A stretch of 64,000 nt of DNA. Source: Planctomicrobium piriforme (GTDB lineage: Bacteria > Planctomycetota > Planctomycetia > Planctomycetales > Planctomycetaceae). Position 1 is the stretch's first letter; every line of letters starts with the position of its first letter. Below the pieces are notes generated by a model that saw only the letters and a program-made list of their open reading frames with translations, did not search any database and was not told the origin of the DNA. The DNA is taken from contig CAMATH010000015.1 of assembly GCA_945860955.1 (NCBI GenBank), positions 1 to 64,000 of the forward strand, written 5' to 3'. This document shows, piece by piece, positions 4,518 to 46,354 of this stretch. A program made the translations under genes and the position numbers.

Positions 4518-5477
4518 ATGCCTATCAAGCCCGCCAAAACACATCTCATCATCGGCTGTGGCTACCTGGGTCGCCGCGTGGCCGATGTCTGGTTGACTCA
4601 AGGCGATCGGGTCTTGGTCGTGACTCGCTCGCTCGCCCGTGCCGAGGAATTTCGGAGTGCAGGCTTGATTCCAGTCGTCGGAGACGTCACCAGCCCCAGT
4701 TCGCTCCCGCAAATCGCCGGTATCGACACACTGCTGTACGCAGTCGGCCTCGACCGATCTGCTGGCCATTCTCAGCGGGCCGTGTATGTTGAGGGACTCC
4801 GCAATGTCCTCTCCGCGATCACCCCGTCAGCAGGTGCGGTACCGGTCGAATCGCCCTCGAATTCGCGAATCGGGGAATCCCACGAAAGACCGAACGAGTT
4901 ACCTCTCGGTGTGGGCAGGTTTCTCTACATTTCCAGTACGAGTGTCTACGGTCAAGCCGCTGGTGAATGGGTTGACGAGGAGTCGGTGACAGAGCCGACT
5001 GCCGAGAATGGTCAGGTCTGTCTCGATGCCGAACGATTGTTGCGAGCGTCGATTCCGAACGCGATCATACTCCGATCTGCCGGGATTTATGGCCCGGGGC
5101 GAATGGTTGCGCGGCTTGAGTCTCTGCGGGCCGGCACCCCCATGACCGGAAATCCCGACGCGTGGTTGAATCTGATTCATGTCGATGATTTGGTGAAATC
5201 GGTGCTGCGTTGCCAGACTTGCGGAGTTCCTGGCGCGACGTATCTGGTGTCCGACGACGCGCCATTACGGCGACGAGAGTTCTATCAGCGTGTCGCCGAC
5301 TTCTCCGGCATCCCCGCACCATCGTTCGCTCCCCTTCCAGCCAACGCGTTGGAACAAACGGTTTTCAACAAACGCTGTTCGAATCGCCGAATCCGCCACG
5401 AATTGAAAGTCGAACTGGAATTTCCCACGGTGGTGGAGGGAATTCCGGATGCTCTCGGCAGGTCCGCGCAGGCGTGA
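4518..5477 (+). CDS. NAD(P)-dependent epimerase/dehydratase (YeeZ-like atypical SDR)
   Basis: The 319-residue Rossmann protein opens with LIIGCGYLGRRVA, the GxGYLG nucleotide-binding motif at about 11-17. It continues with an SSTSVYG segment containing the catalytic-type tyrosine and with RSAGIYGPGR, seen in nucleotide-sugar epimerases. The usual lysine four residues after the tyrosine is absent, as in the YeeZ-like atypical short-chain dehydrogenases, so the chemistry is uncertain. It is a soluble protein. A candidate intrinsic terminator lies at 5696-5737. Confidence 0.8.
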   Translation: MPIKPAKTHLIIGCGYLGRRVADVWLTQGDRVLVVTRSLARAEEFRSAGLIPVVGDVTSPSSLPQIAGIDTLLYAVGLDRSAGHSQRAVYVEGLRNVLSAITPSAGAVPVESPSNSRIGESHERPNELPLGVGRFLYISSTSVYGQAAGEWVDEESVTEPTAENGQVCLDAERLLRASIPNAIILRSAGIYGPGRMVARLESLRAGTPMTGNPDAWLNLIHVDDLVKSVLRCQTCGVPGATYLVSDDAPLRRREFYQRVADFSGIPAPSFAPLPANALEQTVFNKRCSNRRIRHELKVELEFPTVVEGIPDALGRSAQA

Positions 5478-42092: not shown

Positions 42093-42464
42093 ATGAAGAC
42101 AATTCAAGTGTACGATAAACCGATGTGCTGTTCGACCGGCGTCTGTGGACCACGGGTCGACCCCGTGCTGCCCCGATTTGCAGCCGATCTTGACTGGCTG
42201 CGTTCGCAGGGTCACCAGGTGGAGCGTTTCAATCTCGCCCAGCAGCCGGGCGAGTTCGCGAAGAACCGCGAGATCCACCAGTTATTGACGACACAGGGAA
42301 CCGAGTGCCTGCCCGTGGTTGTCGTGGATGGTCGTGTTGTCAGCCAGCGCGGGTATCCATCCCGCGAGATCCTCGCGCTCTGGACAGGCGTCAGCGAACT
42401 CCCCGCGACACGACCGGTCCTTGGGCCGGCCGGTGGATGCTGCGGCGGAAGTCAAAGCTGCTGA
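42093..42464 (+). CDS. arsD: arsenical metallochaperone/regulator ArsD
   Basis: The 123-residue protein begins MKTIQVYDKPMCCSTGVCG with Cys12, Cys13 and Cys18, the metalloid-binding triad of ArsD. It also has a C-terminal CC...C cluster (CCGGSQSC). ArsD delivers arsenite to ArsA and weakly represses ars operons. The ATG at 42093 is preferred over one at 42087 because AAGGA lies about 7 nt before it. It sits 34 bp ahead of a shortened arsA. No arsR, arsB or acr3 is seen. Confidence 0.9.
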   Translation: MKTIQVYDKPMCCSTGVCGPRVDPVLPRFAADLDWLRSQGHQVERFNLAQQPGEFAKNREIHQLLTTQGTECLPVVVVDGRVVSQRGYPSREILALWTGVSELPATRPVLGPAGGCCGGSQSC

Positions 42465-42498
42465 TTCGTCCGGTCGGAGTTCCTTTGGGAGTGGTCAC

Positions 42499-42882
42499 AT
42501 GCTGACGTTTCTTGATTCGCCGACTCGCAATCTCTTTTTCACGGGCAAGGGAGGGGTCGGCAAGACGTCGGTCGCCTGTGCCACCGCAGTTTGGCTGGCG
42601 GACGCCGGCAAACGCGTGCTGCTGGTCTCGACCGACCCCGCCTCCAATCTGGATGAAGTTTTGCAAACCAAGTTGGGCAATCACCCCACTCCCGTGGCGC
42701 TGGTGCCCAATCTATTCGCCATGAACCTTGATCCGGAGGCGGCTGCCGCCGAGTATCGAGAGGTCACCGAGGAATTCGCTCAAAGAACAGCGGTCATTGC
42801 CTGGCAGCATGAACTACCGGTCGGCCGCGCGGGTTTGCAGCGGGTTCTGGGGACTTTTCAAGCGGAGCCCCGGACCCCATAA
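42499..42882 (+). pseudogene. arsA: arsA with large in-frame internal deletion
   Basis: The 127-residue frame starts as a normal ArsA pump ATPase: FFTGKGGVGKTSVACATA (P-loop at 16-24) and LLVSTDPASNLDEVLQT. At about residue 87 (EYRE) it switches directly to EVTEEFAQRTAVIAWQHELPVG, which resembles the C-terminal end of ArsA (for example the ASRVALVPVLASEPTG region of the E. coli protein). About 450 residues, including the second P-loop half, are missing, yet the frame is kept to the stop. Full ArsA is about 580 residues. It is unlikely to drive arsenite export, though it could still bind nucleotide. Between its stop and 43005 no other gene is visible. Confidence 0.8.
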
Positions 42883-43763: not shown

Positions 43764-44144
43764 CTATCGTCTCTTCAATTCGCGGGTCCCCGGGGTCTCA
43801 GCCAGTGTGAACACGACAAGTTCTTCCCCCGTCGTGGTGCTGATATCGTGGTGCAGGCTGACGACCGCGACTTCAGTGACTTCCAGGATCATCGCCTCCA
43901 TCAGCGGTCGCGCCGTTTCCAGCAGGTGGGTGCGGACCTGCTTGAGGAGGTCGCGCCCTTTGTCGGCCGACTGCGATCGAACCAACTGCTGTTCGGCCGC
44001 CGTGAGAACCCCCTGCAAGCGGACGACGAGCAGATCCCCCAGAAGATGGGCGTGGACATCTTTCGGGCCACGCCCCATATACTCCAGTTCGAACCGTCGA
44101 ACGCCCTGGCAGACGGCTGCCTCCATTTCACCACGCGTTTTCAT
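43764..44144 (-). CDS. DUF2294 / MpsC family protein
   Basis: The 126-residue protein matches the DUF2294 family (Na+-translocating membrane potential-generating system component MpsC): MKTRGEMEAAVCQGVRRFELEYMGRGPKDV, then DLLVVRLQGVLTAAEQQL and SLHHDISTTTGEELVVFTL. It is soluble. The ATG at 44144 has a CAGGAG site 8 nt upstream. A longer frame start at 44240 adds residues without family similarity. It is divergent from the promoter of the RNA candidate at 44290-44487. Confidence 0.75.
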   Translation of the reverse strand: MKTRGEMEAAVCQGVRRFELEYMGRGPKDVHAHLLGDLLVVRLQGVLTAAEQQLVRSQSADKGRDLLKQVRTHLLETARPLMEAMILEVTEVAVVSLHHDISTTTGEELVVFTLAETPGTRELKRR

Positions 44145-44289
44145 TGCGATCACTCCTGCGCCGGCGCGCTGCGGGAGGGGAGCGCGGCGGCAAGCTCCGT
44201 AGTTCAGGAAGACGGAGCGAAAGCAGAGCCTCCCGGCCAACCAAGTTGAGTATACCTGATATCGCGCCCTATTGGAAACACAGAGCGAC

Positions 44290-44318
44290 TTGCCTTATTG
44301 ACCCACTCATGTTATAGT
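44290..44318 (+). promoter_or_regulatory. sigma70-type promoter for the 44325 RNA
   Basis: TTGCCT at 44290-44295 and TATAGT at 44313-44318 are separated by exactly 17 bp. The expected start is near G44325. The next gene upstream is the divergent DUF2294 gene, so this promoter serves the plus-strand transcript only. It drives a region with no protein-like frame and ends at a strong intrinsic terminator. Confidence 0.65.
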
Positions 44319-44324
44319 AAATGT

Positions 44325-44487
44325 GCGTCCTAAGTGGTTCCAATCCTAATGGAACGGATGGACGCAGTGATCGGACGACTCAATCTAGCGCAATCCAGTT
44401 GGTTCATTCCTGGCTGGTGGGCGCGATTTCAAGTAAGCCGACGTGGTCGAATCCCTGACGGGGTTCGACCACGTCGGCTTTTTTTTT
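44325..44487 (+). ncRNA. candidate structured small RNA, about 163 nt
   Basis: A transcript from the promoter at 44290-44318 to the terminator at 44436-44487 would be about 163 nt. It folds into a first hairpin (7-bp TGCGTCC/GGACGCA at 44324-44330/44360-44366, enclosing 6-bp GTTCCA/TGGAAC at 44337-44342/44350-44355). A second region (about 44388-44422) is closed by CCAG/CTGG within GCGC/GCGC arms. The terminator hairpin ends it. No known RNA family is recognised: 6S-like bulge symmetry, tmRNA and RNase P features are not evident. The frame spanning it runs straight through the terminator and is not protein-like. Confidence 0.6.
44436..44487 (+). terminator. strong Rho-independent terminator
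   Basis: A perfect 16-bp stem (44436-44451, AGCCGACGTGGTCGAA, with 44464-44479) can be extended by CCC/GGG inside the loop. It is followed by nine T at 44479-44487 on the plus strand. The next plus-strand gene starts 167 bp later. It is the strongest terminator in the window, and no protein gene precedes it on this strand within 1 kb. Confidence 0.9.
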
Positions 44488-44653
44488 CGCCTTGTCGGGG
44501 ATTTGGGAATTCGTCGACCAGGAGGCGATCTCTGGGGTTTGAAGCGCTCTTGTCGCTTCACGCACGCGTCTGGAGTCTGTCTCACGGAGGATCAGGCCAG
44601 GTTTCAATGGCTGCTCGTGGGGACTCACATTTCGGCCTTCACCAGGAGTTCAG

Positions 44654-45391
44654 ATGATTCGTTTTTCATTCCGTCATGCCGCCTGCGTCGTTGCGGTGGG
44701 TGCGACCTTGGTCTATTCGCAGACGTTCGCTAAAGGCCCTCTCCAGGCTGATGCTAAGCCTGCGAATCAGGCCAAGCCCACCGTCGCGCAGGCGGCGGAG
44801 CCCGAGACGGCGATTCCGGCCTGCCTCGAAAACCTGAAGTTGTCGGCCACCCAGCAAACCCAGGCCCGAGAGATCGTTAACAAGTTCGACGCCAGCATTG
44901 ACGCGACCTGGAAGCAATTTGGCGAGAAGTACATGGAAACTGTCCGCACCGAAGTCGTGTTGTTGGCGACCATTGAGGACACGCTGACCGACAAACAGCG
45001 GACGCAAGTCCGTGAGGAACGTCGACGGGTGGCCCACGCCGAGAAGTCGCTGGAAGGGACCAGCACCCGGCCCAACAAGGCGACGGCTGAGCCCGCCGAC
45101 GCGACGGACCAAGTGGTCGCCGGCGTGGGAATCGCGCTGACCGATGAACAGGAAGCCGCCGCCGACAAGATCCACGAGAAATATGTTGGCCACCTCCGTT
45201 CACTGAATCGCGACATTCAGGGTCTGCACAACCGCCTGATCTCGCTCGAAGCGGACCGCATGGTCGAACTCGAAAAGATGCTCACAAAAGAACAGCTTGC
45301 TGAGTTGCGTCATGACCGCCAGGAGATGACCGCGCACGCGAAGTTGACCTCTACTACAGCGCCGGCGACGAAGCCCAAGTCGACCCGCTGA
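44654..45391 (+). CDS. secreted Spy/CpxP-like LTxxQ helical protein
   Basis: The 245-residue protein has a signal peptide (hydrophobic 9-26). Three helical segments carry LTxxQ-type motifs: LKLSATQQTQAREI, TLTDKQRTQVREE and ALTDEQEAAADKIHEKY / LTKEQLAELRHDRQ. Proteins of this kind (Spy, CpxP, ZraP) are periplasmic chaperones or metal-stress sensors. No metal ligands are obvious. A GGAG site precedes the ATG. A 6-bp hairpin (GAAGCG/CGCTTC, 44541-44559) lies in the probable leader. It is the first coding gene after the RNA candidate. Confidence 0.7.
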   Translation: MIRFSFRHAACVVAVGATLVYSQTFAKGPLQADAKPANQAKPTVAQAAEPETAIPACLENLKLSATQQTQAREIVNKFDASIDATWKQFGEKYMETVRTEVVLLATIEDTLTDKQRTQVREERRRVAHAEKSLEGTSTRPNKATAEPADATDQVVAGVGIALTDEQEAAADKIHEKYVGHLRSLNRDIQGLHNRLISLEADRMVELEKMLTKEQLAELRHDRQEMTAHAKLTSTTAPATKPKSTR

Positions 45392-45497: not shown

Positions 45498-45887
45498 ATG
45501 AAACGCTTACTCAAATGGACCGCGTTGTGCAGCCTGATGGCTGCTGCGGTGTGCCTCAGTCCCCTCTCGCTCAGTGAAGCGCACGGTCGTCCCCCCCACC
45601 GGTTGTTTGGCGGGGGATACTACCGCGGCGGTTATGGTGCCCCAGTTTACAACGGGTACACGACCTACGGTTATGGTCCGTATGGCGTTCAGGAGTACCG
45701 TTACAACCAGCAGACCAGGTACCCCGCCAATGTTGTTGTCGGCCGCTATCGGTATGTTCAACCCAACGTTTTTCAACGTCGGCCGATTTATGGCGGTCTC
45801 TTCAACCGCGGTTACGGGGTCTCCGTCAATTTGGGAAACAACTATAGCCCGTATGGATACGGGTATGACGACGATTACGGCTACTAA
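45498..45887 (+). CDS. secreted Gly/Tyr-rich small protein
   Basis: The 129-residue protein has a signal peptide (hydrophobic 9-26) and a body dominated by Gly, Tyr, Arg and Asn (GGGYYRGGYGAPVYNGY; YSPYGYGYDDDYGY). No conserved domain is seen. Such low-complexity secreted proteins are common in planctomycetes and may coat or stiffen the envelope. It lies 106 bp downstream of the Spy-like gene on the same strand. Confidence 0.7.
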   Translation: MKRLLKWTALCSLMAAAVCLSPLSLSEAHGRPPHRLFGGGYYRGGYGAPVYNGYTTYGYGPYGVQEYRYNQQTRYPANVVVGRYRYVQPNVFQRRPIYGGLFNRGYGVSVNLGNNYSPYGYGYDDDYGY

Positions 45888-45930
45888 CGCGTTGGAAGCG
45901 TTGTAACCACCGAGACAAAGGAGAACCCAC

Positions 45931-46086
45931 ATGCTGGGAACAATTCTGTTGGTGTTGCTGATCTTGATGCTGCTGGGGGCGATCCCCGCCTGGCCGCATA
46001 GTCGAAGCTGGGGATACGGTCCCAGTGGTGGGTTGGGACTCGTGGTGCTGATTCTGTTGATTCTGGTGCTGACCCACCGCATTTGA
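45931..46086 (+). CDS. DUF3309 family small membrane protein
   Basis: This 51-residue protein begins MLGTILLVLLILMLLGAIPAW and has a second hydrophobic stretch (LGLVVLILLILVL). The IPAWPHSRSWGYGPSGGLG centre matches the DUF3309 family of tiny two-helix proteins. AAAGGAG lies 9 nt before the ATG. Function is unknown; members sit in stress-related gene groups. It is flanked by the Gly/Tyr-rich and CsbD genes. Confidence 0.85.
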   Translation: MLGTILLVLLILMLLGAIPAWPHSRSWGYGPSGGLGLVVLILLILVLTHRI

Positions 46087-46150
46087 GGAACCACGCCGCC
46101 CAATGCGGCGAGGCCATTTTCACAATTCCTTTCGAAGAAACGAGACCACG

Positions 46151-46354
46151 ATGAGCGGTAAGACAGATGAAGTCAAAGGTCGGATCAAGGAAGCGGCCGG
46201 AGTTCTCACCGGCGACGAGAAACTGAAGCGCGAAGGCCGGACCGACCAAGCCGTTGGCGAGGTGAAACAGGCGGTTCAAGAAGTCGCCGACAAGGTGAAG
46301 GAAGCGGCGGCGGCCACGGTCGCCGCCGCCAAGAACGCCCTTCCAAAACACTAA
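46151..46354 (+). CDS. CsbD-like stress protein
   Basis: The 67-residue protein starts MSGKTDEVKGRIKEAAGVLTG, the CsbD signature, and has a charged Ala-rich helix (EVADKVKEAAAATVAAAKN). CsbD proteins are strongly induced by general stress in many bacteria but their role is unknown. The ATG at 46151 is used rather than an upstream frame start. The hairpin-like sequence near 46412-46442 lacks a T-run and is not called a terminator. Confidence 0.88.
   Translation: MSGKTDEVKGRIKEAAGVLTGDEKLKREGRTDQAVGEVKQAVQEVADKVKEAAAATVAAAKNALPKH

Follow-up and report, generated by a model that had tools for sequence, protein, structure and literature searches.

A candidate new attenuator RNA class, supported by comparative evidence, in leaders of planctomycete stress and inorganic-carbon genes

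Ahead of the gene that starts at position 44654 of a 64,000-nt stretch of DNA from Planctomicrobium piriforme (the window), the segment 44367-44487 very probably acts as an attenuator in the 5' leader of the codirectional gene or genes that follow, and belongs to a new class of cis-regulatory RNA. This putative cis-acting, riboswitch-like attenuator class is well supported by the comparative evidence, and its members hold a conserved aptamer-like core backed by covariation, a feature by which riboswitches are recognised. A wider scheme is also proposed, rather unlikely as a whole, in which a phylum-wide attenuator would be read by MpsC (DUF2294) proteins, themselves a new family of RNA-binding regulators coupling CO2/bicarbonate status to read-through, and would have been recruited in Planctomycetaceae-like bacteria for a general stress regulon of at least 10-20 operons.

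A reading made from the sequence only had described this place as a non-coding unit running from a promoter to a terminator, and the unit was borne out: its promoter is kept in the sister species G002, its terminator is found at the expected end, and the 163-nt strand folds with z = -7.2, none of 200 shuffles folding equally well. The promoter, called canonical, is indeed present (Table 1), but by itself it does not stand out from chance, the region having 5 sigma-70-like sites versus 2.5 ± 1.8 in shuffles. G002 holds TTGTCT-17-TATAAT at the same position, which is nearer to the consensus (identity is 84% over the whole 261 nt), and sigma-70-like sites occur upstream of members of the RNA family in 23% of cases versus 5% in shuffles, their -10 sites lying mostly 45-65 nt 5' of the core. 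The terminator far exceeds in length the other terminator-like sites of the scanned 10 kb (12 in all); it has the nine T previously noted, but its stem is longer than the 16 pairs first counted. Of the further hairpins, the 5' one at 44325-44366 was rejected as a conserved part, its sequence not being kept across copies; the conserved unit is 44367-44487, a single long hairpin followed by the terminator. The lack of a plausible protein also stood, since the stems covary and length changes are not multiples of three, so that no coding potential is implied for the family. The setting in a stress gene group, adjoining a divergent MpsC gene, was confirmed as well. On the other side, the gene at 44654 is likely to be the regulated target of the RNA, and a homologue of it lies directly 3' of the RNA in 4 loci. 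The next codirectional genes possibly share its operon, and the DUF3309/CsbD group is probably among the targets. Further away, at 42093-42882, an ArsD gene is followed by a short ArsA ATPase frame (127 aa) which covers no more than the opening part of the Pfam profile and is possibly a broken gene.

Table 1. Mapped features of the window locus and of a second leader type (RNA2); plain coordinates are window positions.
Feature	Position	Strand	Basis
Sigma-70-like promoter TTGCCT-17-TATAGT, extended -10 TG	44290..44318	+	Motif scan; same place in G002; enrichment 5' of the RNA across the family
5' leader hairpin, -19.5 kcal/mol, lineage-specific, outside conserved core	44325..44366	+	Folding; cross-copy comparison; diverged in G002
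P1 5' strand UCGGACGACU, consensus UCGGANGACU	44371..44380	+	Alignments A1/A6
P2 and P3, apical loop variable	44382..44428	+	Double-sided changes in 13/13 A1 pairs; confirmed in A6
P1 3' strand AGUAAGCCGA; 44435-44441 common to terminator foot	44432..44441	+	Alignments, growing-chain folds
Intrinsic terminator (putative expression platform), 20-21 pairs, 4-nt loop, 9-T run	44435..44487	+	Terminator scan, folding, covariation
Gene next downstream: predicted secreted protein of 245 aa without Pfam match, AGGAG ribosome site	44654..45391	+	
Codirectional genes: small secreted protein, DUF3309 (45931-46086), CsbD (46103/46151-46354)	45498..46354	+	
Divergent MpsC (PF10057/DUF2294) gene	43764..44144	-	Pfam 3.7e-36
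RNA2	L359:1900-2069, L361:1271-1440, L362:1268-1437, L363:1278-1447, L367:1902-2071 and similar		Directly behind MpsC

Every copy of the RNA has a hairpin with an invariant core (GGANGACU ... AGUAAGCC), closed by the helix P1. The 3' strand of P1 overlaps the foot of the conserved terminator, whose 5' arm starts with AAGCC inside that strand. P1 is composed of UCGG/CCGA, a 3x3 internal loop (5'-ANG-3'/5'-AAG-3') and ACU/AGU. The loop is conserved, its N being almost never G, and it may resemble an internal loop of the UAA/GAN type. Invariant bases sit in the helices of P1 and the terminator foot, while the apical loop is variable.

Covariation among related planctomycetes had been named as a check on the RNA, and compensatory changes are found in P2, P3, the terminator and P1 of distant copies. 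Alignment A1 holds double-sided changes in all 13 P2/P3 pairs and in 12 of the 20 terminator pairs, a signal which exceeds 500 of 500 shuffles and all slid controls; that of A6, built from 142 model-collected copies, also lies above shuffles and slid controls, except for one measure reached by 1 of 500 shuffles. The invariance of P1 in A1 is partly by construction, as the seed pattern fixed both of its strands, a selection relaxed in A6 and A7. In A6, P1 is paired in 98.5% of cells and two of its pairs show double-sided change. Distant members carry compensatory P1 changes (ACC/GGU in L122, ACA/UGU in L124 and L125, UUGG/CCAA in L130), and in families f98 and f102 the lower part of P1 is often just GG/CC, with an invariant overlap with the terminator foot.

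According to the folding models, P1 and the terminator would be mutually exclusive through the shared strand AAGCC(GA), which gives the RNA the predicted logic of a riboswitch-like attenuator. During transcription, the first 75 nt would fold into the P1-P2-P3 hairpin, in which P1 sequesters AGUAAGCC(GA), a segment that doubles as the foot of the terminator stem. As long as P1 holds, the terminator would lack its bottom 7 pairs and be detached from the U tract, so that the polymerase would read through; once P1 is displaced, the full terminator would form and the transcript would end as an RNA of ~163 nt. A signal would presumably stabilise P1, making the leader an ON switch. Growing-chain folds of the window RNA pass through P1-P2-P3 from ~44440 to 44474 and then reach the terminator, the lower part of P1 being displaced when the whole 3' arm of the terminator is present. 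When P1 is held, the best fold contains a 14-pair hairpin seven nucleotides away from the U tract, a structure that, by established terminator rules, should not terminate. The predicted energies are -52.2 kcal/mol for the P1-P2-P3 state versus -61.3 kcal/mol for the terminator state, and since the terminator is thus predicted to be favoured over the antiterminator by 9 kcal/mol, any switch would have to be kinetic or ligand-driven.

The RNA is widespread. A BLAST search of relatives with 44240-44500 as query found 44370-44485 repeated both inside single genomes and from one genome to another, and the pattern UCGGANGACU-N(32-62)-AGUAANCCGACG was matched in 29 of 170 genomes of the family; the reversed control pattern had no match in any of the 170. 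A covariance model built from 61 copies (R1) gave at least 382 matches in 54 of these 170 genomes and 23 of 58 genera; at most 22 candidates were scored per genome, which makes the highest counts lower bounds (13 copies in the genome of the window, at least 22 in others). Being palindromic, the terminator alone often matches in reverse orientation (40.9 bits with R1 on the minus strand at 44435-44480), and opposite-strand R1 matches below ~55 bits were discarded. Across a phylum-wide sample, with 9 candidates scored per genome, R1 matched at least 14 of 392 genomes, other families and classes included; in a collection of named genomes, the matches listed are planctomycetes (Planctomycetaceae, Pirellulaceae, Schlesneria, Phycisphaerales, Isosphaeraceae) and one genome titled only 'bacterium'. 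A divergent, AT-rich branch of the RNA is found in f98 and f102, both deep-branching families, for which a separate model (R2) gave matches in 13 of the 75 genomes of their class, restricted to these two families. Several of these carriers encode a hydrazine-synthase-alpha domain and may be relatives of anammox bacteria, a lead only, since a genome of another class also matches the domain. In this branch, 2-4 full units are arranged in tandem (L304:6425-6918, L303:1426-1662 and 4972-5210, L313:5958-6310).

The novelty expected by the sequence-only reading agrees with the Rfam searches, which gave no match above the gathering score to any known family, T-box, c-di-GMP, cobalamin and 6S included. 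The whole window gave 0 matches at that score; 44200-44660 gave chance hairpins only at E up to 5 (best 22.9 bits versus a cut-off of 67), and 17 related loci gave nothing beyond chance hairpin matches at E up to 0.1. The RNA was not described in the literature searched.

With gene positions taken from our own gene caller, 144 of the 152 RNA copies with a called downstream gene are upstream of that gene and codirectional with it (p = 2e-33), at a median gap of 106 nt. Among 128 first downstream genes tallied in f1 and the related set, the commonest encodes MpsC (PF10057; 26 cases), followed by CsbD, BON, PAS-histidine kinases, DUF3309, DUF1328, KaiC, P-type ATPases and Zn-dehydrogenases, with single cases of NorB, HSP70, catalase, ferritin and sigma factors. 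The targets of the RNA in family f1 are mostly a general-stress set. At L180 (~1124-2587), a KaiC-like gene 3' of the RNA is followed by a KaiB-like gene. The stress connection suggested by the sequence-only reading therefore holds for f1, but the RNA stands before inorganic-carbon genes elsewhere: in f98 and f102, the genes behind it encode SulP with beta-carbonic anhydrase, OadG-OadB (oxaloacetate decarboxylase), a formate-dehydrogenase-like protein, DUF3034-SulP and PurE, with a carbonic anhydrase behind PurE in L280. Searches by tblastn near f1 copies found none of OadB, PurE, carbonic anhydrase, formate dehydrogenase or DUF3034, and SulP once only; as inorganic-carbon genes are missing there, the carbon link stops short of the f1 targets.

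MpsC is also a frequent neighbour of the RNA. It lies less than 700 nt from 56 of 159 RNA elements (26 downstream on the same strand, 24 divergent, 3 upstream on the same strand, 3 other), and the RNA is within 1.5 kb of 21 of the 42 MpsC loci examined in RNA-bearing genomes; in f98 and f102, MpsC is mostly found just upstream. RNA and MpsC occur together in 43 genomes, RNA only in 11, MpsC only in 18 and neither in 98, an association with an odds ratio of 21 (p = 6e-16) computed without correction for phylogeny. Several of the 11 genomes that lack an MpsC match, one of them with 14 copies of the RNA, are incomplete drafts. The 18 R1-negative genomes with MpsC showed weak similarity to R1 at best, and in most of them a different promoter-leader-terminator unit (RNA2) stands behind MpsC. 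RNA2 is only loosely conserved and has no Rfam match; it is followed by carbonic anhydrase and bestrophin (L362), an Sbt_1 bicarbonate transporter (L366) or NuoL-like genes (L363, L367). At L340, L341, L342 and L345, inspection by eye showed MpsC with a USP-like gene behind it and next either a SulP-like transporter gene or a bestrophin-like one, with no RNA of the window type. Proteins of ~280 aa encoded at L347, L350-L353, L355 and L356, next to kinase-like genes, have a response-regulator-like start (LRVLIVDDNRDGADAL...) with the MpsC match behind it, and are possibly a phospho-regulated MpsC.

What moves the proposed attenuator has two serious candidate answers. Somewhat less than an even chance is given to a true riboswitch, in which a small molecule or ion (e.g. 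bicarbonate, Na+, pH or a stress second messenger) would bind the P1 loop and MpsC would be only a frequent target. This would account for a conserved non-canonical loop with flanking helices, a putative expression platform that overlaps it, the tandem copies, the many copies per genome before functionally diverse genes, the rank of MpsC as the commonest first gene, and the presence of the RNA in genomes without detected MpsC. Status as a target alone, however, fails to explain why divergent, unregulated MpsC genes are about as frequent as downstream ones, or why MpsC is mostly upstream in f98 and f102. That MpsC genes adjoin the RNA in various orientations and across two lineages, and co-occur with it in genomes, points instead to MpsC as an RNA-binding antiterminator (or anti-antiterminator) of the leader class that senses inorganic carbon or membrane potential, a reading which we hold tentatively. 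RNA-less genomes, where MpsC often adjoins another terminator-ended leader and inorganic-carbon genes, are consistent with it, as is the finding that MpsC is dispensable for MpsAB bicarbonate transport in Staphylococcus aureus (PMC6689103), which leaves its role free. Against it stand the 11 RNA-positive genomes without detected MpsC, a shared regulon that could account for the linkage, and the structure of the protein: the AlphaFold2 model of MpsC (pLDDT 90), compared with Foldseek and VIA-align, gave no clear RNA-binding fold or convincing relative (best Z 6.4). Weak similarities to ribosomal L23-like and TRAPP folds are within chance, and PDB sequences gave no match. In S. aureus, mpsA falls under 5% CO2 (PMC6689103). 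It is plausible that inorganic carbon provides the signal and that MpsC is a regulator; a tie of the signal to CO2/bicarbonate, sensed by MpsC or jointly with it, is a suggestion to be treated with caution.

The sequence-only reading had taken the unit for a small regulatory RNA, and it does remain a candidate structured transcript with its own promoter; a stand-alone or mainly trans-acting function is very unlikely. A family of trans-acting small RNAs would fit the strong terminator, the several copies per genome and the expected ~163-nt product, but 95% of the copies point into a close gene, conserved bases lie in helices and leave no open seed, tandem units precede one gene, and the conserved overlap of P1 and terminator has no role in such an RNA. 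The RNA is best read as a cis-acting leader attenuator because it is multi-copy, points into genes and has states that are predicted to be exclusive. Less probable still is a CsrA-responsive leader, whose invariant GGA would be a CsrA site exposed with P1 open: CsrA-like genes do recur in operons behind the RNA (15 in one cluster, of which 10 are second genes), but the GGA is in a helix, no CsrA-type loop is conserved, and CsrA is usually a later gene of MpsC-CsrA operons. A dispersed repeat or mobile element merely carrying a terminator can be set aside almost entirely, since the copies, although many and grouped in islands, diverge about as much within as between genomes (69% versus 64%) while three G000/G002 orthologous locus pairs are 88-90% identical, which argues against a recent mobile repeat, as do the orientation bias, the covariation and the promoter at a preferred distance.

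If the cis-acting leader attenuator is confirmed, its regulon would be among the larger RNA-controlled ones in one genome, and this in a phylum about whose regulation little is known; the stress regulon of uncultured planctomycetes could be predicted straight from sequence. MpsC, a domain of obscure role, would gain a testable function, and a route would be opened to an RNA-based inorganic-carbon sensor, none of which appears in the literature searched.

Among known systems, the Rhodopirellula-1 motif, listed in a table as a candidate cis-regulatory RNA of Planctomycetes and Proteobacteria with no Rfam accession given there (Weinberg et al. 2010, PMC2864571), may coincide with the new class, as far as that table entry allows a comparison. 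The MpsABC/DabAB systems for dissolved inorganic carbon share with it the MpsC domain and, in some lineages, NuoL-like, carbonic anhydrase, SulP and Sbt_1 neighbours; in the literature searched on them, MpsC is a dispensable transporter accessory and no RNA element is described. BglG/LicT RAT and ANTAR/NasT leaders are similar in that an RNA hairpin overlaps a terminator and a candidate regulator gene adjoins the RNA, but MpsC is neither a BglG nor an ANTAR protein, paired hexaloop hairpins are absent, and binding of MpsC to the RNA is putative. From known riboswitches the class differs in having no sequence or structure match in Rfam 15, in its single long hairpin with a 3x3 loop, and in a regulon of general stress or inorganic carbon. 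Nevertheless, it resembles the ON-type terminating riboswitches, in which P1 competes with the terminator, in its place in the 5' leader, its conserved core, its tandem copies and a P1 3' strand common to the terminator 5' arm.
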